Below, in pieces: positions 2,942 to 22,566 of a DNA stretch of 36,032 nt. This DNA comes from Candidatus Rifleibacteriota bacterium (GTDB lineage Bacteria; Muiribacteriota; Ozemobacteria; Ozemobacterales; Ozemobacteraceae): contig JAAYVD010000085.1 in assembly GCA_012517355.1 (NCBI GenBank), positions 1 to 36,032 of the forward strand, in the 5' to 3' direction. Every line of letters begins with the position of its first letter. The stretch's first letter is position 1. Both the position numbers and the translations under genes were made by a program. The notes below the pieces were generated by a model. It made no database searches. It was given only the letters and a program-made list of their open reading frames with translations, and was not told where the DNA came from.

Positions 2942-4347
2942 ACCAGGGAACCGGACAAAGGTTGGAGCCCGGTGGGGCCGACCTGGATGATCCGCCGGCA
3001 GAGGCGTTCCCCCAGGGTGCGATCGTGGGTCACCAGCAGAAGCCCGCCTCCGGCCTTCAGAAAGCCCTCCAGCACCTGGATGGCGCGGGCCAGGGAAACC
3101 GGATCGAGGTGTCCGAGGGTCTCATCGACCAGCAGCAGGTCGGGACAAGCCAGCAAAGCCCGGGCGAGGGAGACCCGGGCCGCCTCGCCCCCGGAAAGCC
3201 CCCCCACCTCACGGTCGAGAAGGTGGGCGATGCCCAGTTCGGTGGCCCGGGCCTGCATCCGGTCGCACGTTTTCCCCGCTTCCTCCGGCCTGCCCGGGTG
3301 GCCGATCAGGAGGTTCTCACGGACCGTTCCGGAGAACAGGAACGGGCGCTGGAACACCAGGATGGCCCGGCGGCCCTGGCGATCGACGGTCCCGGCCGAG
3401 GGGGGGATGACGCCGGCGATCACCTTCAGCAGGATGGTCTTTCCCGCCCCGGAAGCCCCCATCAGGGCGGTTCCGCCGGTCAGGGGCAGTTCGCCGGAGA
3501 GGCTGCCGAAAAGATCCCGGCCATGGAAGGAGACCGCCAGCCGATCGAGTTTCAGGGGAGGCACTTCGGGCAGGGAGGCGGCATCCGCGAACCGGTCCGT
3601 GATCGCCGGAGCCGGGAAACCCGCCGGTTCTTCGACGGCTTTTCCAGCCTGGCGGCGGGCTGCGGCGACCTGGAGGCCATGCACCAGGAGAGCGTTGCCG
3701 AGGGCGACTCCGAGCAGCATGATGCCCAGGGCGAGGGCGAGTTCGGTATCGCCTTTGGCGGTTTCCAGGGCGATGGCGGTCGTGAGGGTGCGGGTGAAGC
3801 CTTTGATGTTCCCGCCCAGGATCATGGCCACCCCGACCTCGGAGACGACCCGCCCGAAGCCGACACAGGCCGCGACACCGAGCCCGGAACGGCATTCACG
3901 CACGAGCAGGCGGAGAAGGGCCAGGCCACGGATCTCCAGGTTGACGGCGGTATCGATCAACCCAACCGGGATCTGGGCCAGGCTGGAATGCAGGAACACC
4001 GTGATCAAAGGCACGATCAGCAGGACCTCCCCGGTCACAATGGCGGAGGGGGTGAACATCATTTCCAACGCCCCCAGCGGCCCCCGCCGGGAAATGAAGA
4101 GGTAGACCAGGGTCCCGACGATGACGGTGGGTACCGAGAGCAGCATCTGGAACAGGATGAGGACCGGGTTCTTCCAGCGGGAAGGCAGGCAGAACAAGCC
4201 CCAGGCCAGGGGCAGCGAAACCAGCAGGCCGACCCCTGTTCCGAGAAGGCCGACCTTCAGGGTGAAGAAAAAGACCCGGAAGGCCTCCTCATCGAGAGCG
4301 AACAGCCGCGCGAAGGCTCCCGAGAAGACCTCCAGGAAAAAATCCAT
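2935..4347 (-). CDS. Tungstate-type ABC transporter, permease-ATPase fusion
   Basis: 470 residues joining two proteins that are normally separate. Residues 1-230 are a TupB-like permease with about five or six membrane segments and the typical GGNIKGFTRTLTTAIALETAKGD block, a hallmark of tungstate permeases by family knowledge. After a linker rich in A, P and R, residues about 262-470 are an ABC ATPase: Walker A GASGAGKT (near 296), Q-loop FQRPF, signature LSGGE (near 382), Walker B LLLVDE (near 401) and switch THD (near 418). It would import oxyanions (tungstate, perhaps molybdate) into the cytoplasm. No TupA binding protein is in the window. It starts 20 bp after metH on the same strand, so it is likely the last gene of the methionine operon. 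Confidence 0.85.
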   Translation of the reverse strand: MDFFLEVFSGAFARLFALDEEAFRVFFFTLKVGLLGTGVGLLVSLPLAWGLFCLPSRWKNPVLILFQMLLSVPTVIVGTLVYLFISRRGPLGALEMMFTPSAIVTGEVLLIVPLITVFLHSSLAQIPVGLIDTAVNLEIRGLALLRLLVRECRSGLGVAACVGFGRVVSEVGVAMILGGNIKGFTRTLTTAIALETAKGDTELALALGIMLLGVALGNALLVHGLQVAAARRQAGKAVEEPAGFPAPAITDRFADAASLPEVPPLKLDRLAVSFHGRDLFGSLSGELPLTGGTALMGASGAGKTILLKVIAGVIPPSAGTVDRQGRRAILVFQRPFLFSGTVRENLLIGHPGRPEEAGKTCDRMQARATELGIAHLLDREVGGLSGGEAARVSLARALLACPDLLLVDETLGHLDPVSLARAIQVLEGFLKAGGGLLLVTHDRTLGERLCRRIIQVGPTGLQPLSGSLVA

Positions 4348-12691: not shown

Positions 12692-13447
12692 TCAAGGCCC
12701 GGCGAAAACCCCGACGTTCGGCACCGCGGCCGATGTGCCCTCCCGGGTCACCTTCGCATCGCGGGGGTAGGCGGCCGCGATCGTGACGGTGACCTTGGAC
12801 GGGACGTGCCCGGGGACGGCATCGATGGTGATGGATTCCACGTTCTTGACCAGTTCCATGCGGAAGGAGACCGGGAGACTGGTGGGATCGACGGCCAGCC
12901 CGGTCGAGTAGTCGGGGCCGGTGGTCGCGTACGTGGTCGCCCGTTCTTCGTAGATGAGGGTTCCCTGGTCCGCCTTTTCGCGGCTCTTTTCAAGGCGCAG
13001 CAGCAGGAAGGTCAGGGAACCGACCCGGTTCTCGCCGGCGGCAAACCCCTGCTTCTCCGGGGAACAGCGGGCCATGGACAGAAGGATGCGGTCGGGAAGG
13101 CCGAGCAGGGTCTTGGCCGTCTTCTTCCCGATGCCGCCCGGAATCCGCACGTAGAAAGCCGCGGAATTGGGGCCCGGGGTGGTGGTGGTGCCGCCGGCAT
13201 CGACCAGTTTGGTGGGCAGCAGGGTCGATGGGTACGAGGTGGTCTGGATGGCCCGGGTAATGGCCAATTCGGCCTGCCGGAGGTCGGCCGCGGTGTACTG
13301 CAACCAGGCAGCCTTGCCCGCCACCCGCTGCCCGCCGAAGAAAAGGGAATAGCCCACGGTCAAAAAGACCCCGAGGATCAGGGTGACGATCAGGACTTCC
13401 ACGAGGGTGAAGCCTGTTCCCGGCGACCGGCGGCGGCACGGGATCAT
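12692..13447 (-). CDS. Minor pseudopilin, GspJ/PilW-like
   Basis: 251 residues. A short basic leader ends in a prepilin peptidase site: cleavage after G in GTG|FTLVEVL, with Glu at +5 of the mature protein and a hydrophobic helix to about residue 33. The following domain is long and beta-rich, as in J/W-type minor pilins, with a loop rich in T, G and P. It would be processed at the inner membrane and join the tip of a type II secretion pseudopilus or type IV pilus. Its ATG overlaps the stop of the K-like gene by 4 bp (ATGA), so translation is coupled. It is the last gene of a three-gene pseudopilin operon. Confidence 0.85.
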   Translation of the reverse strand: MIPCRRRSPGTGFTLVEVLIVTLILGVFLTVGYSLFFGGQRVAGKAAWLQYTAADLRQAELAITRAIQTTSYPSTLLPTKLVDAGGTTTTPGPNSAAFYVRIPGGIGKKTAKTLLGLPDRILLSMARCSPEKQGFAAGENRVGSLTFLLLRLEKSREKADQGTLIYEERATTYATTGPDYSTGLAVDPTSLPVSFRMELVKNVESITIDAVPGHVPSKVTVTIAAAYPRDAKVTREGTSAAVPNVGVFAGP

Positions 13448-14289
13448 CGGCGTTTCACCCGGAGGATCTTCTCCATCTGGTGGGAATAGGCTTGCCGGGT
13501 CACGGGATCCCAGATGGTGGCGACCACGGAGAAGTTCACGGCTTCCTCGTTGAGGCGGCGCTGCCCCGCCACCGACAGGACCCGCAACTTGGTGACCTCG
13601 TACATGGCGGCGTAGGGCGAATCGGCATGGATGGCGGCATCGAACAGATGGGCCGGAACGGTGGTGTTGGTGGCAATGGTCAGGGCCGGCTGGATGGTGT
13701 TGCGGTTGGACAGGTCATACCGGTATTTCCACAGGTACAGATCGGAATTGGGCACCCGGGTGCGGCTGTCCTCCTCCATCGGCCAGCCGTCGGTACCGAA
13801 CCAGTCGCTGGCATGCGACAGGAAATTGGCGGCATCGGCATCGGCGGGGTCGAGGGCCTGGAGCCGTGACCACTTGAGGACGTTGTCGGTCATGAGGGTT
13901 CCGGCGGTGAGGAAGCGGGGCCCGGGGTTGAAAGGGCCGGCCTTGTGCACGTAGGGCTCGGCGCTGGCATACTCGGCCCGCCGGATGGGGTCGAGATTGT
14001 CGTATTCGGTCTTGGTGAGCTCGGTGAAATCGAAGTAGGGGTTCTTGCCCTGGCTGTATTCGCTGGCGTCATACAACTCGGTGGGGAAAAACCGCACCTT
14101 CAGCTCGGCATGCTGGATGGCGCCGGCCGCCAGGAACTGGGCCTGCAGCTCCCGGATCGCCTTTCCCTGTTGGAACCGGTATTCCCGGCCGGTCTTGAAG
14201 AGGTAGAGGGCGCTGATCATCATCACCGAGGCCAGGACCAGGGCGATGATGAGGGCCATGCCGCGCCGGGTCGATCGGTTCGGTGTCAT
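13444..14289 (-). CDS. Minor pseudopilin, GspK/PilX-like
   Basis: 281 residues. The leader RRG|MALIIALVL has a prepilin cleavage glycine but no Glu at +5, as is typical of GspK/PilX members that cap the pilus. A hydrophobic helix to about residue 32 is followed by a soluble domain. ATG 14289 overlaps the I-like gene by 4 bp and its stop overlaps the J-like gene, so all three are coupled. An apparent longer frame to 15498 is a shadow of the upstream gene and promoter region. The trio I-J-K forms the pseudopilus tip in known type II systems. No GspD, E, F or G gene is in the window. Confidence 0.82.
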   Translation of the reverse strand: MTPNRSTRRGMALIIALVLASVMMISALYLFKTGREYRFQQGKAIRELQAQFLAAGAIQHAELKVRFFPTELYDASEYSQGKNPYFDFTELTKTEYDNLDPIRRAEYASAEPYVHKAGPFNPGPRFLTAGTLMTDNVLKWSRLQALDPADADAANFLSHASDWFGTDGWPMEEDSRTRVPNSDLYLWKYRYDLSNRNTIQPALTIATNTTVPAHLFDAAIHADSPYAAMYEVTKLRVLSVAGQRRLNEEAVNFSVVATIWDPVTRQAYSHQMEKILRVKRR

Positions 14290-15149
14290 TGCAGGTTCGC
14301 CTTGTAGGTGATGACGTGGATCCGCTGGGGGCGGCCGGCGGAGGTGGTAGGCCGGCTGTATTCCTTCATCGCGAGGTTCCAGCGGATCTGCAGCAGGAGC
14401 CGTTGCATCAGGCAGAACCGGCCATCGGCGTCGGCCTGCACCACCTGCCGCTGGTCGACCCGGACCCGCGTTCCGGTGCGGAAATCGTGCTCCGGACCCC
14501 AGAGAGTGGTGTTGGCCGGCCCAGCCAGATAGCGATAGGGCGGGATCACCGCGCCGGGGTTGGTCGGTCCGCCGGTCTGGTAGATGGAAGGCTGGTTGTG
14601 GGTGACCTCGGTCACCGTGGCCTCCGCGGTCATCGTCGCCCAGCCGGGCTGGTCTTCGGGAGTCGGGTTGCGGAAAAAGGAGAAGTAGAACTCCCCCTCG
14701 GTGAAGTTGGGGGTGGTGTCTTCGATCGGTTCGGACCGCAGGTAGATGTGGTAATGGATGCCCCGCGGGTCGGTGGCGATCCCCTCGCAGGCATACCCGC
14801 CCCCCGCCTTCGCCCCGTTCGGGAACAGGAGGAGGGCCAGGGAGGCCGCCTGCGGCCCCACGAGGATGGCCGGGTTCCCGGCCCGCAGGTTGGAAAAAGG
14901 CACTTCGTCCAGCAGGGTGTTGAGCACCAACCGCGCCCGGTCGATGGCGAACGCCTGGCTGACCAGCGTGTCGGTGTCTTTCACGTCCTGGGTCAGCAAC
15001 CCGAAGATGGGAATGAGGGCCGAGGCCAGGACGAACATGGCCAGGACCACCTCGGGAAGGGTGATGCCGCAGTTTCCCGGTTTCACGACGCGGGGTGAAT
15101 AGAGCCCGGGACGGGCGTTCCTGCCCACCCCTGCCTGGATCTCCAACAT
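14286..15149 (-). CDS. Minor pseudopilin, GspI/PilV-like
   Basis: 287 residues. ATG 15149 gives a rather long leader (about 28 residues) ending in CG|ITLPEVVLAMFVL: cleavage glycine, Glu at +5, and a hydrophobic helix. The mature domain is large for an I-type protein (usual about 100-150) and contains aromatic, beta-like segments. AGGG lies 3 nt and AGGA about 12 nt before the start. First gene of the pseudopilin operon, with a good promoter at 15264-15292 on the same strand. The subtype name rests on gene order and N-terminus only. Confidence 0.8.
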   Translation of the reverse strand: MLEIQAGVGRNARPGLYSPRVVKPGNCGITLPEVVLAMFVLASALIPIFGLLTQDVKDTDTLVSQAFAIDRARLVLNTLLDEVPFSNLRAGNPAILVGPQAASLALLLFPNGAKAGGGYACEGIATDPRGIHYHIYLRSEPIEDTTPNFTEGEFYFSFFRNPTPEDQPGWATMTAEATVTEVTHNQPSIYQTGGPTNPGAVIPPYRYLAGPANTTLWGPEHDFRTGTRVRVDQRQVVQADADGRFCLMQRLLLQIRWNLAMKEYSRPTTSAGRPQRIHVITYKANLQ

Positions 15150-15263
15150 GTTCCCTACTTCCTGTCGTGCTGGGGACGACACCACGGTCGCGTGGGCCCC
15201 GAAATTCCGGGAGACTGACAAGTCGCGGCCGCCCCGGCCAGCCCCCATTCGAAGCCTGTCTTG

Positions 15264-15292
15264 ATTTTAGGTGAGAGCGGCGGAAAATGCAA
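15264..15292 (-). promoter_or_regulatory. Promoter of the pseudopilin operon
   Basis: On the minus strand TTGCAT (15292-15287), 17 bp, TAAAAT (15269-15264). It predicts a start near 15257 and a leader of about 108 nt to the ATG at 15149. Confidence 0.65.
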
Positions 15293-15660
15293 CGGAAACC
15301 GGCGAAAATCCCCTTCGGCAGGCCTGTGCCCGGCCTCGGTTCCAGAACATCACTCCGGCCGCCCCGGTGTTCCCCATCCCCTTGCCATTTCGAGAGCCAT
15401 CCTACAGGATTCATGCCTGTTTGCTTCACCCCTGACCTCAAGCACGATTCCCGTCCGGCGGAAAAATTCCTGTCTTCCGGTAAAAAAAACTGACGCAAGG
15501 CCCCGGTGGAACCTGGAATGGACAGCAGGTCCGACCGTTGCCCGGCCCCACCGTCGTCATGGCATCCCTGCGGGAGTAGTCAATCCAGAGCTTTCGCAGC
15601 GACGCCTCCCCGATCAAGGCCACCAGCGATGGCCAAATTTCCGGAACTTGCACAGGACCC
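15293..15660. other. Divergent control region
   Basis: About 370 bp between the pseudopilin promoter and the sigma-54 promoter. No credible gene is seen on either strand. The spacing upstream of a -24/-12 promoter is where an enhancer-binding activator would bind, but I could not identify a clear repeated binding site. Confidence 0.5.
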
Positions 15661-15681
15661 TGGCACCCTCCTTGCTACAAT
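15661..15681 (+). promoter_or_regulatory. Sigma-54 (-24/-12) promoter overlapping an extended -10 box
   Basis: TGGCAC (15661-15666), 5 bp, TTGCT (15672-15676): the invariant GG (15662-15663) and GC (15674-15675) are 12 bp apart, as in the RpoN consensus. The same bases carry TGC-TACAAT (15673-15681), an extended -10 for sigma-70. Both predict transcription starting near 15687. It drives the exported-protein genes to the right. Confidence 0.55.
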
Positions 15682-15753
15682 AAAGGGGGGGGTACAGAAA
15701 GAGAAATGAGTAGTCTTGCCAGACTCTCCAGCCAACGCCGCTCAGGAGGCGGC

Positions 15754-16476
15754 ATGGGTTTTCTCATTTTTCTCCTGACCCTCGCGGCCTCGCCTCAACT
15801 CCCGGGATGCGACGAAAATCTCCTGGCAGCGCTCCGCCCCCACCTTCCCGCGGCGGGGGCGGCCCGGAACCTGTTCAACCTGGCCGGCCAGACCGACCAA
15901 CTCGCCGATTCCCTGGGCAGTCTGCCATCGGCCCGGACGGCCTTTGCCCGTCTGGAATCGGAATGGCTGCAGGTGGAACGGAATTGGCAACGGGACGGCG
16001 CCGATCCTTCCCCGCGCCTTCGTGCCGGGCTGGCGGCGGCCCTCCTGGGCCTGCGGTTTTCCCTGGCCCGGGAAGACCTCGTTGCCGCGCACGAGGACAC
16101 GGAGCGGGTGTTTTTCGCCACCATCGGCCTCCTGCGGGCGGACGGCCTCCCGCCGCCCCAGGAATCGCTCCTGGAGGTCGCCCTGGGCATCGAAGCTCTC
16201 CTGGACGAGGCCCAGGCGAAGCGTCTGGCCGAATCCGGGCCCCGGATCGCCGCATTGATTCCGGCTTTGCAACAGGTGCGGGAAGCGTTTCCCGGGGTGG
16301 CCACCCTCCCGGCGACCAACCTGGTCGACCTGGCGACCAGCCTGGCCCAGGTCGACCCTGCCCAGGGAACGGGCGGCGAGAAGATCCAGGTGGGCATCGC
16401 CCTGATGAAGCAGGAGTTTTCGGTCTTTCTCAGGGTCCTGGCCGCGCACCTTGCTTCCAACCAGGAGGCCCGGTAG
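15754..16476 (+). CDS. Exported helical protein of unknown function
   Basis: 240 residues from ATG 15754, which has AGGAGG (15744-15749) 4 nt upstream. An in-frame ATG at 15706 would add 16 residues with a weaker binding site. The N-terminus is a signal peptide (MGFLIFLLTLAAS), and LPGC19 could be an imperfect lipobox. The remainder is predicted almost entirely alpha-helical, rich in L, A, E and R, without a motif I recognise. It is first behind the sigma-54 promoter, with an OmpH-like gene and the giant exported protein downstream. A helical periplasmic accessory of that locus is the simplest reading, but this is inference. Confidence 0.7.
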   Translation: MGFLIFLLTLAASPQLPGCDENLLAALRPHLPAAGAARNLFNLAGQTDQLADSLGSLPSARTAFARLESEWLQVERNWQRDGADPSPRLRAGLAAALLGLRFSLAREDLVAAHEDTERVFFATIGLLRADGLPPPQESLLEVALGIEALLDEAQAKRLAESGPRIAALIPALQQVREAFPGVATLPATNLVDLATSLAQVDPAQGTGGEKIQVGIALMKQEFSVFLRVLAAHLASNQEAR

Positions 16477-16561
16477 AATGGCTGGTGGAAGCCCGATACC
16501 ACGTTCCGGAAACGGCCCGACCCGGGTCCCCGGGTCCGGCCTCCAAGGAGGTCCCCCCCCT

Positions 16562-17626
16562 GTGAAAGCCCTTCGCCCAGGCCTGGTCAGCCTCTGGCTG
16601 ATCTCCCTGATGTTCGCCATCACTGGTTCCCCCGGCGCGACCGCCGCCCCCGCCATCCCCGTCGCCAGCAACACGGCCGCCCCGGCCGCCGCGGGTGGGG
16701 AATGGTCGGTGGTCACCGTGGATCTGCCGGTCTTGTTCACCTTCCACCCCGCCATGCGGAACTTCGATTACCGTTCCCGCAAGTTCATCTCCCAGGTTCC
16801 CTACAAGCCGCCCACGGGCGGCATGAAGGCCTGGACGGACCTGGCCGCGGAACGGGCCCGGCTGGCCGACCTGGAGAAGACGATGGCCGGCCAGCTCGGG
16901 AAGGTCAACGCCGAGATGGCGGCCAACAACAAGGCGGCCGCCGAGTCCCGCGACGAGCCTCCGATCCCGAGCTATACGGAATACCAGAAGTATGCGGAGA
17001 TGGCGCAGGACCATCGGCAGATGCTGATGGAACTGGCCCACCAGGTGGTGGGGGGGTTCCCCGACAGCCTGCTGGGGAACCTGCCTTCTTCTGACCTGCA
17101 GAGGGTGGCCAACGATGTCTTCGAGGCGGTGGAAGAGGAGGCCAGGAAGCAGAATGCGGCCGTGGTCCTCAATCTCCCGGCCCTCGACCTGGGGGTCCAT
17201 CCCGCCCAGGCCGCCCCGCCGCCGCCGCCCGGGACGGAGCCCGACCTTCTCGACCGCCTGAACATCAAGACCCTGTTCGACCTGGAATGCCTGGCCCAGC
17301 AGGCCTCGGGGAGTTCGCCGGTCCCCCTCGGCAAGGCGGCCCCGCCCAAGAAGGTCGAGGGCTACTGCGGCGGGCATTTCGAAAGCGTCAAGGATCCCGA
17401 GTTCCTCCGGACCCTGGTCGCCGAGTACTATGACAACCGGAATGCCTTCTGCGGACCCTTCGAGAACCTCGGCGTCCGCCGGCGGATCCTGAAGGGGGCC
17501 CTGGCCTTCCACGAGAAGGACATCACGACCGATGCCCTGACACGGATTTTCGACAAGTACAAGACCCGGAAACTGGAACGGGAAGCCGTTTTCGACATCC
17601 TCCGCCGCCGGCGCGGCGGCCAATGA
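16562..17626 (+). CDS. Exported OmpH/Skp-like coiled-coil protein
   Basis: 354 residues from GTG 16562, with AAGGAGG (16545-16551) 10 nt upstream; a longer frame from 16451 has no binding site. The signal peptide ends near ATAA (about residue 29). The mature start VVTVDLPVLFTFHP resembles the VDxxxVF strand of OmpH/Skp periplasmic chaperones. A charged helical stretch (about 95-150) could be a coiled coil, and DVFEAVEEEARKQNAAVVLNL resembles the closing strand-helix of the fold. A proline-rich linker (PPPPPG) leads to an additional C-terminal domain with several cysteines, not found in Skp. The likely role is a periplasmic chaperone or adaptor for the large protein encoded 36 bp downstream. 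Confidence 0.65.
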   Translation: MKALRPGLVSLWLISLMFAITGSPGATAAPAIPVASNTAAPAAAGGEWSVVTVDLPVLFTFHPAMRNFDYRSRKFISQVPYKPPTGGMKAWTDLAAERARLADLEKTMAGQLGKVNAEMAANNKAAAESRDEPPIPSYTEYQKYAEMAQDHRQMLMELAHQVVGGFPDSLLGNLPSSDLQRVANDVFEAVEEEARKQNAAVVLNLPALDLGVHPAQAAPPPPPGTEPDLLDRLNIKTLFDLECLAQQASGSSPVPLGKAAPPKKVEGYCGGHFESVKDPEFLRTLVAEYYDNRNAFCGPFENLGVRRRILKGALAFHEKDITTDALTRIFDKYKTRKLEREAVFDILRRRRGGQ

Positions 17627-17662
17627 GCTGAACGAGCCACAAACCTGGCTGGGAGGGGAAGT

Positions 17663-20600
17663 ATGAACCGTTTTGCGCAGCCCTGGATCCAGTGGGCCGT
17701 CCTCGCCGTCCTCGTCGCCGCCATCTGTCCCGTGGCGGGCGAAGCCGCCAACTTCTACCGGGAGAACCGCAACGGGAAGGTTTTCGTCCTGCAGGTCGAC
17801 CCGGTCACCCGCCTGGAAACGGTGTACAACCACGAGAAGACGAAGATCTTCGTCGCGCCCGGCGCGAAGCGTCTCGCGGTCCTGCCGACCGCCGGCTGGG
17901 GCGAATTCACCAGCAACCAGGTGCCCGCGGGGTCGCCTTCCGGTGCGGGCGAGATCGCGGGTGACCCGAACGGGATCATCACCCTGCGCCTGCAGCGCAT
18001 CGATGCCAACACGGTCCAGTTCGACATCTGCCGTGGGGCCACCAAGGTCCTGACCTCCCTTCAGGACAAGAGCAACGGCAAGGATTTCTTCGAGGACAAG
18101 GTTCCGCTGGACATCGCGGTCAGCCAGTACATGGGTGCCCCCAACGGGACGGTCAATGCGAAGGACAACCTGCGCGTCTACCTGTTCCTCGGCACCTACG
18201 GGGTGGGCAACAATCCGGCCATCTTCCGGTTCGACTTCAAGGACGACAATCTGGTGCGGACGAGCTTCAAAGCCCGCCTGCGGCCCGACGCGGGCTCCCC
18301 GCCCTTCAACACGACGACCATGCTCAACTGGACCGACATCGTCGAGTCGGGCGACATCAACGCCGCCCAGGCGATCGACGTCAACTGCATGTCGCCGATC
18401 GCCGACCTGCTGGTCTACCAGCCCACCCGCCAGTATTCTTTGCAACACGTCTGGATGCCCCAGACCAACAACGGCAACTCCTGGGGCATCAACTACCTGA
18501 TGTCCGACAACCGGGTCATGAAGGCCAATACCGCCACCCCTCTGACCAACATCATCACCCAGATGCACCAGATCTTCGACGTCGGCGTCGATCTCGGCGA
18601 CGCGTTCATCGACACCCTCTCCTACTCGCGGGCCTACTACAACACGGGCCTTACCATCTTCCAGAACAACGTCAACACCAACACCTCGATTTCGAACATC
18701 TACTACGACATCCATGACGATGCTGGAACCATGGTCGAGATCCGCGACGGCTCGCCCAACGGCTCCGTCCTCGAGACCGCCCGGGTCAGCCCCAACCCCG
18801 CCGTGTTCGGCCACGCCACCTGCCACCTGTTCGGCCTGTCGTGCCGCAACGCCCTGTCCGGCAAGGAACTGGTCGTCTACGAACCGGTCTACAAGATCAA
18901 TTCCGCCGCCGTGTCCGCGAACGAGATCAGCGACAACAACCGGAACAACGTGCCCGACCACATCGACGGCGACGGCAAGGGATACTACGGTTTCCGGGCT
19001 TCCTACCTCATCGAACGTACCGACGGAGCCACCTTCCCGACCGACATCGCGGGCAACAGCCTGCACACCGACTACGTCCTCGACTACGTGATCGCCCACC
19101 GCTTCCCCCTGGCCGGCGTGACCGCCAACACCGAGTTCACCTACCGGGAATACGCGATCGAGCGCGACCCGGCCACCACGCCCGCCGCCCTCATTCCGGG
19201 CGAAGTGGTCCACGTCCGGGTGGGGAACATCTTCCACCGGGACCCGGACGTCTACGGGGAATACAACCAGTTCGGCTGGAACGGGAACCCGGGAAACAAC
19301 GTCTTCTTCTGGGTGGGCAATCCCGGAGAGGCCTACAACGCCCAGAATGCGCCAACCAAGCGGAACAGCGGGCATGTCCTGGGCGTGATGATCCGCGACA
19401 CCTCCTACGCCACGGCCGACTTCTTCGGAGTGGTCGGCAACGACGACTTCAACCAGGGCCAGGGCGACCTCTACTTCCTGTCGAAGCAGTTCGGATCGTA
19501 TATCCGGCCCCGCATCGTCGCGACCAACAACCCGTACACGCCGCCGGTCACCGGGTATGGCCTCTGGTGGAAGTACCAGTATGACCGTGCCACCTATTAC
19601 GGCATCTCGCGCACCCAGTGGCTCGATGCCACCACGACCCTCACGACCTGGATCAACCGGGACGCCTTCTTCATCGGTGACTCGAAGTACAGCCAGATGG
19701 TCTACAACGTGAACTGCGGGTGTCGCGGCCAGCGGTTCGACAACTTCGTGCTCGACTACGAGGCGAGCGCGCCCCTCAACGACTTCGCCATCGTCAACAT
19801 CGGCGCTCCGCCCTGGGTGACGGGCGGCCTCTTCCCCACCATCCAGGCCAACACCGGCACCACCATCTTCGAGCCGGACGCGAAGGTCACCTTCGTCGGC
19901 AACTATACGGGACGGACCGACCTGCTGACGGCCGGTCAGGTCGGCTTCCGGTTCGTTGTCCTGAAAGACATGTTCATCGACTCGGGCAACCCCTTCACCG
20001 AGCCGTTCCTGGCAGATGGCGGCAAGAAGGTGGTCGATTCGTACGTCGAAACCGGCGATTACCTCCCCTCGCCGGTCTGGTCCTACACCTTCCGCCGGTC
20101 CATCCTTCCCACCGGCACCGACGTGGCCACCTTCAACGTCTACCTCGGCATCAAGTACAACTACCAGGACTACGGGCTGCTGCCCTACCCGGCGTATTCC
20201 TGGGATCCCATTCCGACCAAGGACTTCTTCGCCTGGAGCAACTCCATGGGCGGCTCCTTCGTCGACGGGCAGTATCACGAGATCCTCTCCGGCACGAAGA
20301 AGTTCGGCGCCCCCCTGCGGATCAACATCGATTCGCGCGAGAACCTGACCCCCGAGCATCCGTTGGCCATCTCGAAGCTCGAGGCCTGGAGGGTCGATGC
20401 CGCGGTTTCCGGCGGGGTCGGCCAGGTCGCCTACAGCGATATCGACAGGTGCTACGTAGCCTCCCAGACCCACAAGGTGAAGGTCAAGGCCTCCGGCAGC
20501 CTGATGTTCCTGTCCGAGATCCCCCTGCCGCGCGACACCTGGTTCCTGACCATGGGCGGCATCATGCCCCAGGCCGACAACTATCGGGTCCGGCTGGCTC

Positions 20601-22501
20601 CGGACAACAAGCAGTATCTCAAAGACACCATGACCCTCTTCCCGGATGACAGCTTCAACGGTGATCTGAACGGGATCTCCTACGCCTGGTATATCCGAGC
20701 CAAGGTCCAGCCGTACAATTCGTCGGCCCGGAACCTCACCGAGACCAATCCTGCCGTTCCCGGCCAGCACCTGCTCTATCGTGGAGCGGCGGCCGACATG
20801 GACGGCTACCAGTTGATCGCCCGCGGCACCCTGGACCCCCGGCCGGTCAACCAGCCCGAGAAGCTCGTTCCCAACCTCTTCGAGACCGAGAGTTCGCCCG
20901 CTTCGAAGGTCACCATCACTCCGGCCTACACCGCCGCCGACCCCAACCACCGCCGGTTCTCCTTCACGGTCGAGACTCCCTGGATGTATCTGCCGTTGCC
21001 CCTCGACGGCGGCCTCACCGCCACCGACCTGCGCGACAAGTATGAGTTCCGCATCGCCTTCCAGTACCGCATCGGCAAATGGAGCAAGGTCACGGTTCGA
21101 AACTACAACTCCAACCTGCTTACCGACAGCTTCAGCGCCGCTTCCGTGAACGATGTCGAGTTCACGGGCGACGACCCCCTGACCCAGGTGGAGCGGAGCT
21201 ACACCACCAGCCCCTCGCCCCTGCCCTATCCCACCTACCGCTGGCCTGCGGCCCAGACCTGCGCAGTACGGATCACCGACACCCTCGGCCCGCGGGTGGA
21301 AGGCTTCACGCTCGGCGGCCCGCTGACCTCGGGCGATCCATTCCCGACCGATCCCATCCACATCCGGCTGATCGACAACAACCCGCACGACTACATGAAA
21401 CGGTTCCCCCCCAGGCTCCGGATGGCCTTCGAAACCGGGGCCGACCAGTATCTGAAGATCAAGCAGCCCGAAAGCCTGCTCGGCTTCCCCTATACGAATT
21501 TCAACACGGGCGGGGCCTTCGACGGGGTCAGCGGGTTCCTGCGCGACACCGACGATTCGACGACGACCGACAACCTGTTCTACCAGGCATCGGCGGTGAG
21601 CCTGGCCAGTTGCACGACCTCCGTGCCCAGCACCTTTGCCCAGGTCTGCACCAGCCGGCTGCTGACCGACCGGCTGGCCACCATCACCTACGAAACCACC
21701 GGGGCGGCGCCCCTGGTGGCCGCCAAGACCCTTCATTCCCCCGCCTTCAACCCCGGGCCGCTGGCCACCAATCTGTTCCTGTATGAGAGCCCCGACCGCG
21801 ACCCGATCATCGACCGCAGCACCGGCCTGCCCGAGGAGCCATTGATCACTGACGGGTCAGGGAACAAGCTGGACAGCGGTCTGGCCTTGATCAGCGCCAA
21901 TGTCCAGGACAACGACCCGCCCCAGGTCCGCCTGTTCATCCAGGACCAGATGAACCTCGACGTCATGGTCGAAGTGACGGGCGGGGTGCGGGACACCGAC
22001 ACGGTCCATGCCCCGCGCACCCTCACGGTCAAGAACATGAAGGCTCTCGAAGACTACGTCTTCCAGGCCGAGGTGGCCACCACGACCCCGACCGGCCCGG
22101 GCCCGGTCATCGAGCGGTATGCCCTGGATGACCTGCTGGGCGCGATGCCGACGGGCTACACGGTTCTCAAGCCCCTGGCGGCCGGCAAGCTGCCCCTGCA
22201 GGTGTTCCCCGATTCCCGGTTCCGGATCACGGCCCAGGCCTTCGACCAGGCCGGCCCGGGCTCCCCGCTGGGCGTCACCCTGTCGGTCCCCGATTATTCC
22301 AGCCTGCCCGACGACAGCGGCATCGACCGCTACGACCTGGTCTTCCGGCGGGGCCTCACCGGCAACTCCTACCACGTCCAGGCGGAGGTGAAGGATTCCT
22401 CGGGCAACACCGTCATCATCCGGGTGCCCCTGGTGATCGGGGCGCCCGGCGCCATCGACGTACGGACCATCGAGGAGTCGACCCGCAAGGAGAACAATTA
22501 G
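17663..22501 (+). CDS. Giant exported protein, unknown family, with calcium-type loop
   Basis: 1612 residues. ATG 17663 has GGGAGGGG just upstream. Residues 1-29 are a signal peptide ending in GEA|ANF. The mature protein is rich in N, D, T, Y and P with short beta-like segments throughout and few cysteines, typical of surface-exposed proteins. At residues 424-437 a D-x-N-x-N-x-V-P-D...DGDG loop resembles thrombospondin type-3/EF-hand-like calcium loops. No C-terminal membrane anchor, autotransporter barrel or sorting motif is visible, and I recognise no known domain. It lies beside minor pseudopilins, as the calcium-binding tip adhesin PilY1 does in type IV pilus operons. A similar tip-adhesin role is an inference. 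A strong terminator follows. Confidence 0.75.
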   Translation: MNRFAQPWIQWAVLAVLVAAICPVAGEAANFYRENRNGKVFVLQVDPVTRLETVYNHEKTKIFVAPGAKRLAVLPTAGWGEFTSNQVPAGSPSGAGEIAGDPNGIITLRLQRIDANTVQFDICRGATKVLTSLQDKSNGKDFFEDKVPLDIAVSQYMGAPNGTVNAKDNLRVYLFLGTYGVGNNPAIFRFDFKDDNLVRTSFKARLRPDAGSPPFNTTTMLNWTDIVESGDINAAQAIDVNCMSPIADLLVYQPTRQYSLQHVWMPQTNNGNSWGINYLMSDNRVMKANTATPLTNIITQMHQIFDVGVDLGDAFIDTLSYSRAYYNTGLTIFQNNVNTNTSISNIYYDIHDDAGTMVEIRDGSPNGSVLETARVSPNPAVFGHATCHLFGLSCRNALSGKELVVYEPVYKINSAAVSANEISDNNRNNVPDHIDGDGKGYYGFRASYLIERTDGATFPTDIAGNSLHTDYVLDYVIAHRFPLAGVTANTEFTYREYAIERDPATTPAALIPGEVVHVRVGNIFHRDPDVYGEYNQFGWNGNPGNNVFFWVGNPGEAYNAQNAPTKRNSGHVLGVMIRDTSYATADFFGVVGNDDFNQGQGDLYFLSKQFGSYIRPRIVATNNPYTPPVTGYGLWWKYQYDRATYYGISRTQWLDATTTLTTWINRDAFFIGDSKYSQMVYNVNCGCRGQRFDNFVLDYEASAPLNDFAIVNIGAPPWVTGGLFPTIQANTGTTIFEPDAKVTFVGNYTGRTDLLTAGQVGFRFVVLKDMFIDSGNPFTEPFLADGGKKVVDSYVETGDYLPSPVWSYTFRRSILPTGTDVATFNVYLGIKYNYQDYGLLPYPAYSWDPIPTKDFFAWSNSMGGSFVDGQYHEILSGTKKFGAPLRINIDSRENLTPEHPLAISKLEAWRVDAAVSGGVGQVAYSDIDRCYVASQTHKVKVKASGSLMFLSEIPLPRDTWFLTMGGIMPQADNYRVRLAPDNKQYLKDTMTLFPDDSFNGDLNGISYAWYIRAKVQPYNSSARNLTETNPAVPGQHLLYRGAAADMDGYQLIARGTLDPRPVNQPEKLVPNLFETESSPASKVTITPAYTAADPNHRRFSFTVETPWMYLPLPLDGGLTATDLRDKYEFRIAFQYRIGKWSKVTVRNYNSNLLTDSFSAASVNDVEFTGDDPLTQVERSYTTSPSPLPYPTYRWPAAQTCAVRITDTLGPRVEGFTLGGPLTSGDPFPTDPIHIRLIDNNPHDYMKRFPPRLRMAFETGADQYLKIKQPESLLGFPYTNFNTGGAFDGVSGFLRDTDDSTTTDNLFYQASAVSLASCTTSVPSTFAQVCTSRLLTDRLATITYETTGAAPLVAAKTLHSPAFNPGPLATNLFLYESPDRDPIIDRSTGLPEEPLITDGSGNKLDSGLALISANVQDNDPPQVRLFIQDQMNLDVMVEVTGGVRDTDTVHAPRTLTVKNMKALEDYVFQAEVATTTPTGPGPVIERYALDDLLGAMPTGYTVLKPLAAGKLPLQVFPDSRFRITAQAFDQAGPGSPLGVTLSVPDYSSLPDDSGIDRYDLVFRRGLTGNSYHVQAEVKDSSGNTVIIRVPLVIGAPGAIDVRTIEESTRKENN

Positions 22502-22534
22502 CCCGCCAACCGCCCGCCTGACCTTCAATCCATC

Positions 22535-22566
22535 CCCCGCCGCGCTCTACGGCGGGGTTTTCTTTT
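22535..22566 (+). terminator. Intrinsic terminator after the giant exported protein
   Basis: A perfect 8-bp stem CCCCGCCG (22535-22542) / CGGCGGGG (22550-22557) with a 7-nt loop, followed by TTTTCTTTT. It is the clearest terminator of the window and closes the sigma-54-driven unit. Confidence 0.9.

Follow-up and report, generated by a model that had tools for sequence, protein, structure and literature searches.

A multi-copy gene module of Riflebacteria couples giant exported proteins with OmpH-like proteins and I-, K- and J-like pseudopilins, suggesting a counterpart of the PilY1 pilus-tip system

Results

A giant exported protein encoded beside a pseudopilin trio

The 36,032-nucleotide stretch of Candidatus Rifleibacteriota DNA analysed here (the window) carries one of at least four modules of its genome in which a very large exported protein is encoded together with an OmpH/Skp-like protein and three minor pseudopilins, an association suggesting that Riflebacteria, an uncultured phylum, have their own, lineage-specific counterpart of the PilY1 pilus-tip system. 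At this locus (Table 1) the pseudopilin genes occupy the minus strand (12692-15149), where they are transcribed in the order I-K-J with I/K and K/J overlaps of 4 nt (ATGA), and they diverge from the genes for a helical protein, the OmpH-like protein and the giant on the plus strand (15706-22501). This confirmed the layout described in an earlier note on this DNA, which had placed coupled I-, K- and J-like genes facing three exported-protein genes. The other window genes checked encode an HAD hydrolase, an ABC transporter, methionine synthase, an MFS transporter, a PNK3P phosphatase and PriA, none of which is secretion or pilus machinery; in the genome as a whole there were 8 matches to secretins and 32 to the T2SSE family.

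Table 1 Features of the module in the window
Feature	Position	Strand	Remarks
J-like minor pseudopilin	12692..13447	-	251 aa; motif GFTLVEVLIV
K-like minor pseudopilin	13444..14289	-	281 aa; RRGMALIIAL, without Glu5; ATGA overlap on both sides
I-like minor pseudopilin	14286..15149	-	287 aa; GITLPEVVLA; start taken as ATG 15149
Sigma-54-type promoter-like site TGGCACCCTCCTTGCT	15661..15676	+	exact match
Exported helical protein	15706..16476	+	lipobox-like LPGC followed by DENLL
OmpH/Skp-like periplasmic protein	16562..17626	+	7 of 10 aligned relatives match PF03938
Giant exported protein	17663..22501	+	1612 aa; five full-length relatives and one truncated
Calcium-type loop DNNRNNVPDHIDGDG	18932..18976	+	giant residues 424-438
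Conserved giant C-terminal tail, DVRTIEESTRKENN	22457..22498	+	occurs in most of the giants and in several exported proteins of smaller size
Intrinsic-terminator-like hairpin and T-run	22535..22557	+	8 G-C pairs

The giant is single-copy in its own genome. Of six relatives found in the family, five are complete, showing 45-67% identity along their whole length, and the sixth is truncated at the end of a contig; Candidatus Ozemobacter sibiricus is among the named records. It had been described as a giant of no recognised family, and this was borne out: the window protein produced no Pfam match at E<=1 and no NCBIfam or PDB sequence family, the giants in general gave no significant Pfam or NCBIfam match and none in profile searches of the PDB, and a known unrelated family to which it might belong was looked for in these searches and not found. 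The PilY1 domain PF05567, a C-terminal beta-propeller, was tested for and not detected in six paralogous giants at E<=5, nor anywhere in the genome at E<=0.1, so that the giants were not filed as PilY1. The calcium-type loop noted earlier was located and, as a motif, it is present in all six class members. Profile comparison joined giant classes C, D and E (E values of 3e-176 to 1e-38), which were linked to B and F, class B entering the combined profile through its middle region (E 5e-8); class A, that of the window, joined the combined profile of the other giants through its C-terminal 200 positions (E 6e-12). Classes B-F are thus homologous by sequence, with class A linked to them by its last 200 residues. 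AlphaFold models of the N-terminal 714 residues reached a mean pLDDT of 28 (single sequence) and 39 (shallow alignment of seven sequences) and gave no structural support for docking or for a beta-propeller. A beta-propeller reading of the N-terminus was dropped and is not claimed, because profile self-comparison of the giant revealed no internal repeats.

All three members of the trio have prepilin-type N-termini, like GspI, GspJ and GspK, and the K-like protein lacks Glu5, as does GspK. The J-like protein matched the prepilin cleavage/methylation models (Pfam N_methyl, 1.7e-4; TIGR02532, 4.2e-5), and its orthologs (37-69% identity) adjoin the giant in 5 loci. The K-like protein, with orthologs at 43-75% identity, matched the NCBIfam GspK model NF037980 over the N-terminus only and far below the cut-off (1.2e-4). 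As for the I-like protein (orthologs at 44-71% identity), its assignment is a probable one based on its motif and on its relatives, 8 of the 13 aligned giving N_methyl matches. At E<=0.05, none of the aligned trio members matched the I, J or K families of T2SS in Pfam, and no full-length match to an I, J or K family model was found. The I and K assignments, made from N-terminal motifs only, should be taken as putative. The prepilin N-terminal motif has 107 matches in the whole genome, several of them clustered on one contig (C149).

For the OmpH-like gene, a GTG start behind AAGGAGG was adopted and a longer TTG frame from 16451 was rejected. As to the earlier OmpH/Skp-like call, 7 of 10 aligned relatives matched PF03938 (best value 3.7e-5) and the window protein alone gave no match. 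A PDB profile search with the family returned mostly coiled coils and one OmpH-like chaperone at E 0.083. For the helical gene, orthologs (about 34% identity) were found only in the two loci from the same genus (L016 and L017); GCD and NLL are invariant among them. The protein has no significant Pfam family, and a search for homology with proteins encoded at C96, C132 and C1 yielded nothing convincing.

Conservation of gene content across gene orders

The five complete orthologous loci were located using the giant alone. In all five of them the I-, K- and J-like, OmpH-like and giant genes have been kept, in three arrangements: divergent within the genus (L016, L017), colinear as I-K-J-OmpH-giant (L019, L020) and colinear as OmpH-giant-I-K-J (L018). 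Retention of the same content across three gene orders argues for selection on linkage. The neighbourhood thus recurs in related genomes, and its two halves, whose complete failure to co-occur in relatives was to count against the earlier proposal, were found together in these five loci and in most paralogous modules. Of the exported trio then described, the OmpH-like gene and the giant recur, but the helical gene was found only within the genus.

Further modules in the same genome were reached through other K-like genes, on C24 (giant of 1607 aa), C132 (giant of 1385 aa) and C54/C1. The C54 giant runs off the end of its contig and apparently continues on C1, both ends sharing the residues EYEIF (L035, 1-1435; L044, 4031-7075). 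For a phylum-wide search, a giant profile was built from classes B-F (1,250-2,200 aa); all its matches fell in Riflebacteria (37 of 40 genomes), with no match in about 340 other genomes, and an OmpH-like profile gave matches in 29 of the 40. Since the loci retrieved were picked by OmpH matches (L058-L097) or by giant matches (L110-L129), neither set was chosen by the presence of the trio. The loci retrieved gave 67 giant entries, a few of them fragments or repeat retrievals of one place; 41 had I-, K-, J- and OmpH-like genes nearby, being in this sense encoded with minor pilins as PilY1 is, and 3 more had the full trio. In the home family, Ozemobacteraceae, nearly every surveyed module combines the trio with one to three OmpH-like genes, the exceptions in which the trio was not present being L085, L120 and L125; 7 of the 9 home-family loci obtained with the second giant profile also have it, and the chance expectation is about 3% by our own estimate from the K-like density of this genome, whose 7.1 Mb hold about 11 such loci. 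No trio was detected in families f3, f4, f6 and f7, in which an OmpH-like gene often adjoins the giant, and more generally, outside the home family and f5, the two are adjacent at loci with no trio detected (e.g. L080, L081, L111-L113, L115 and L117). Because most other families show only this adjacent pair, the OmpH-like gene and the giant form the core and the trio is a frequent partner; across the phylum, the OmpH-like gene and not the trio is the giants' most constant companion. Absence of the trio at some loci means that it is not always needed, or that it need not adjoin the giant. No report of clusters of pseudopilin and OmpH genes in Riflebacteria was found in the open-access literature.

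At least two OmpH-like genes per module were seen in L067, L072, L085, L089, L095 and L121, with five in L085, possibly one for each client. A Flp/Tad-type pilin-like gene (3695-3940) lies near the OmpH-giant pair in L080, from family f7, where no trio was found.

Promoter-like and terminator-like sites

The sigma-54-type promoter reported ahead of the exported trio corresponds to an exact site, the sole perfect match in the window, and a site of this type is present at the same position in both congeners (11/11 in L017, 10/11 in L016), that is, in all three genomes of the genus. Near-consensus sigma-54 sites within 1 kb upstream of module operons numbered 11 in 53, against 0.8 expected, about ten times commoner than expected, although three of them are orthologous and not independent, so that the effective number is lower than 11. 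Expression in this genus and of some other modules thus appears to be under sigma-54, as judged from these site matches. The strong terminator described earlier does have its hairpin and T-run, but this is weak evidence alone, because 11 terminator-like sites were found in the region versus 8.9 expected by chance.

A C-terminal tail shared with other exported proteins

Most giants end in a terminal strand resembling GNxRxLxIPxxI and then a tail resembling IRTLDxxxxRK. The tail pattern fits 33 of 45 giants versus 21 of 897 other predicted genes (about 2%), and of these 21, four are further class A giant copies and one is a fragment of a broken giant. On C71, C96 and C166 (L033, L032, L036), pseudopilin genes, a full trio at C96 and C166, adjoin genes for shorter exported proteins (795 to >1,328 aa) whose only detected similarity to the giants is the same C-terminal tail. 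An exported protein family of about 860-970 aa encoded on C34, C6 and C182 (L031, L038, L039) has it as well. The tail was rejected as a signal exclusive to trio-linked proteins, since the C6 and C182 members of this family carry it with no pseudopilins near them. A class C giant in L095 (5274-9815) is broken by an in-frame TAG, and its downstream fragment ends in the usual tail.

Discussion

By analogy, we lean slightly towards the view that the module specifies a pseudopilus or pilus tip complex which carries or exports its giant in a PilY1-like manner, a new giant having taken the place of PilY1. The locus would then be one module of a multi-copy Riflebacteria system. Its giant would cross the inner membrane by means of a signal peptide, through Sec, and its own OmpH/Skp-like chaperone would keep it competent for export while in the periplasm; the I-, K- and J-like pseudopilins would cap a type IV-like filament (pseudopilus or pilus) whose machinery is encoded elsewhere in the genome. 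The giant might dock on this cap, most plausibly via its conserved C-terminal strand and tail, and be taken to the outer membrane, or through it, as a tip or surface protein, like PilY1 on minor pilins, possibly with a role in adhesion. Different modules would in this way supply the cell with different tips or surface proteins. This reading draws on what could be read from the sequences, namely gene content, recurrence, homology among the giants, the shared tail and the enrichment of promoter-like sites. The PilY1-like layout proposed earlier has gained from the multiple modules, the lack of detectable PF05567 in the genome and the conserved tail, but lost as regards the helical gene and the constancy of the trio.

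The closest functional parallel, by layout, is found in minor pilin/PilY1 clusters such as those of Myxococcus xanthus (PMC13190605, PMC11046646, PMC7541494). M. xanthus has three of them, each with its own tip protein (PMC13190605), and the PilY1 C-terminal strand has been modelled to complete the PilX sheet (PMC11046646). Both systems occur in several copies per genome, each copy pairing minor (pseudo)pilins of its own with a single very large exported protein, and in both the core machinery is located elsewhere. They differ, however, in that neither PF05567 nor any other known domain is detectable in the giant, its partners are I/K/J-type pseudopilins instead of FimU/PilV/PilW/PilX, and dedicated OmpH-like proteins are present. 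These last resemble OmpH/Skp chaperones (PF03938) in having a VDxxxxxxFHP region at the N-terminus with a coiled stretch after it, but at about 320-400 aa they are longer, and their genes accompany those for giant exported proteins.

The trio itself could be a dedicated type II secretion pseudopilus tip, with the giant as its substrate, released or left at the surface, and not a stable tip component. Its composition, the K-like protein without Glu5 (with its partial NF037980 match) and the overlapping genes are indeed those of the GspI/J/K tip, and the shorter, unrelated, tail-bearing proteins encoded beside pseudopilin genes at C71, C96 and C166 fit cargo with a common export signal. Known type II secretion tips, however, each handle many substrates and are not known to be encoded separately for each of them, whereas here there is about one orphan trio per giant, with no machinery genes around that of the window, and we regard a substrate role as unlikely, if well worth keeping in view.

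It should also be considered that the functional unit may be the OmpH-like protein and the giant, forming a surface or outer-membrane structure, with the trio a lineage-specific addition which uses the giant only indirectly. The pairs with no detected trio at L080, L081, L111-L113, L115, L117 and L119 favour this, but trio adjacency survives rearrangement within one orthologous class, which makes it a rather improbable account. That adjacency reflects nothing but common descent, the two operons being unrelated neighbours, would agree with the divergent halves of the window and its two congeners; it is contradicted by the co-directional genes of other genera, in two orders, and by the recurrence of the association in paralogous modules, and we consider it very improbable.

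Returning to the tip-complex reading, its fullest form would be a phylum-restricted, multi-cassette filament-tip system in which a new family of giants, unrelated to PilY1 in sequence and chaperoned by dedicated OmpH-like proteins, docks on interchangeable I/K/J trios through a conserved C-terminal strand, the same strand serving as a mark on other exported cargo, a proposal which we put forward tentatively and with some doubt. If true, the arrangement of minor pilins with a large tip protein would have arisen, or been rebuilt, around an unrelated protein family, the short conserved tail would offer a direct test of cargo recognition by type IV-like filaments, and an uncultured phylum would gain a defining multi-copy surface system.
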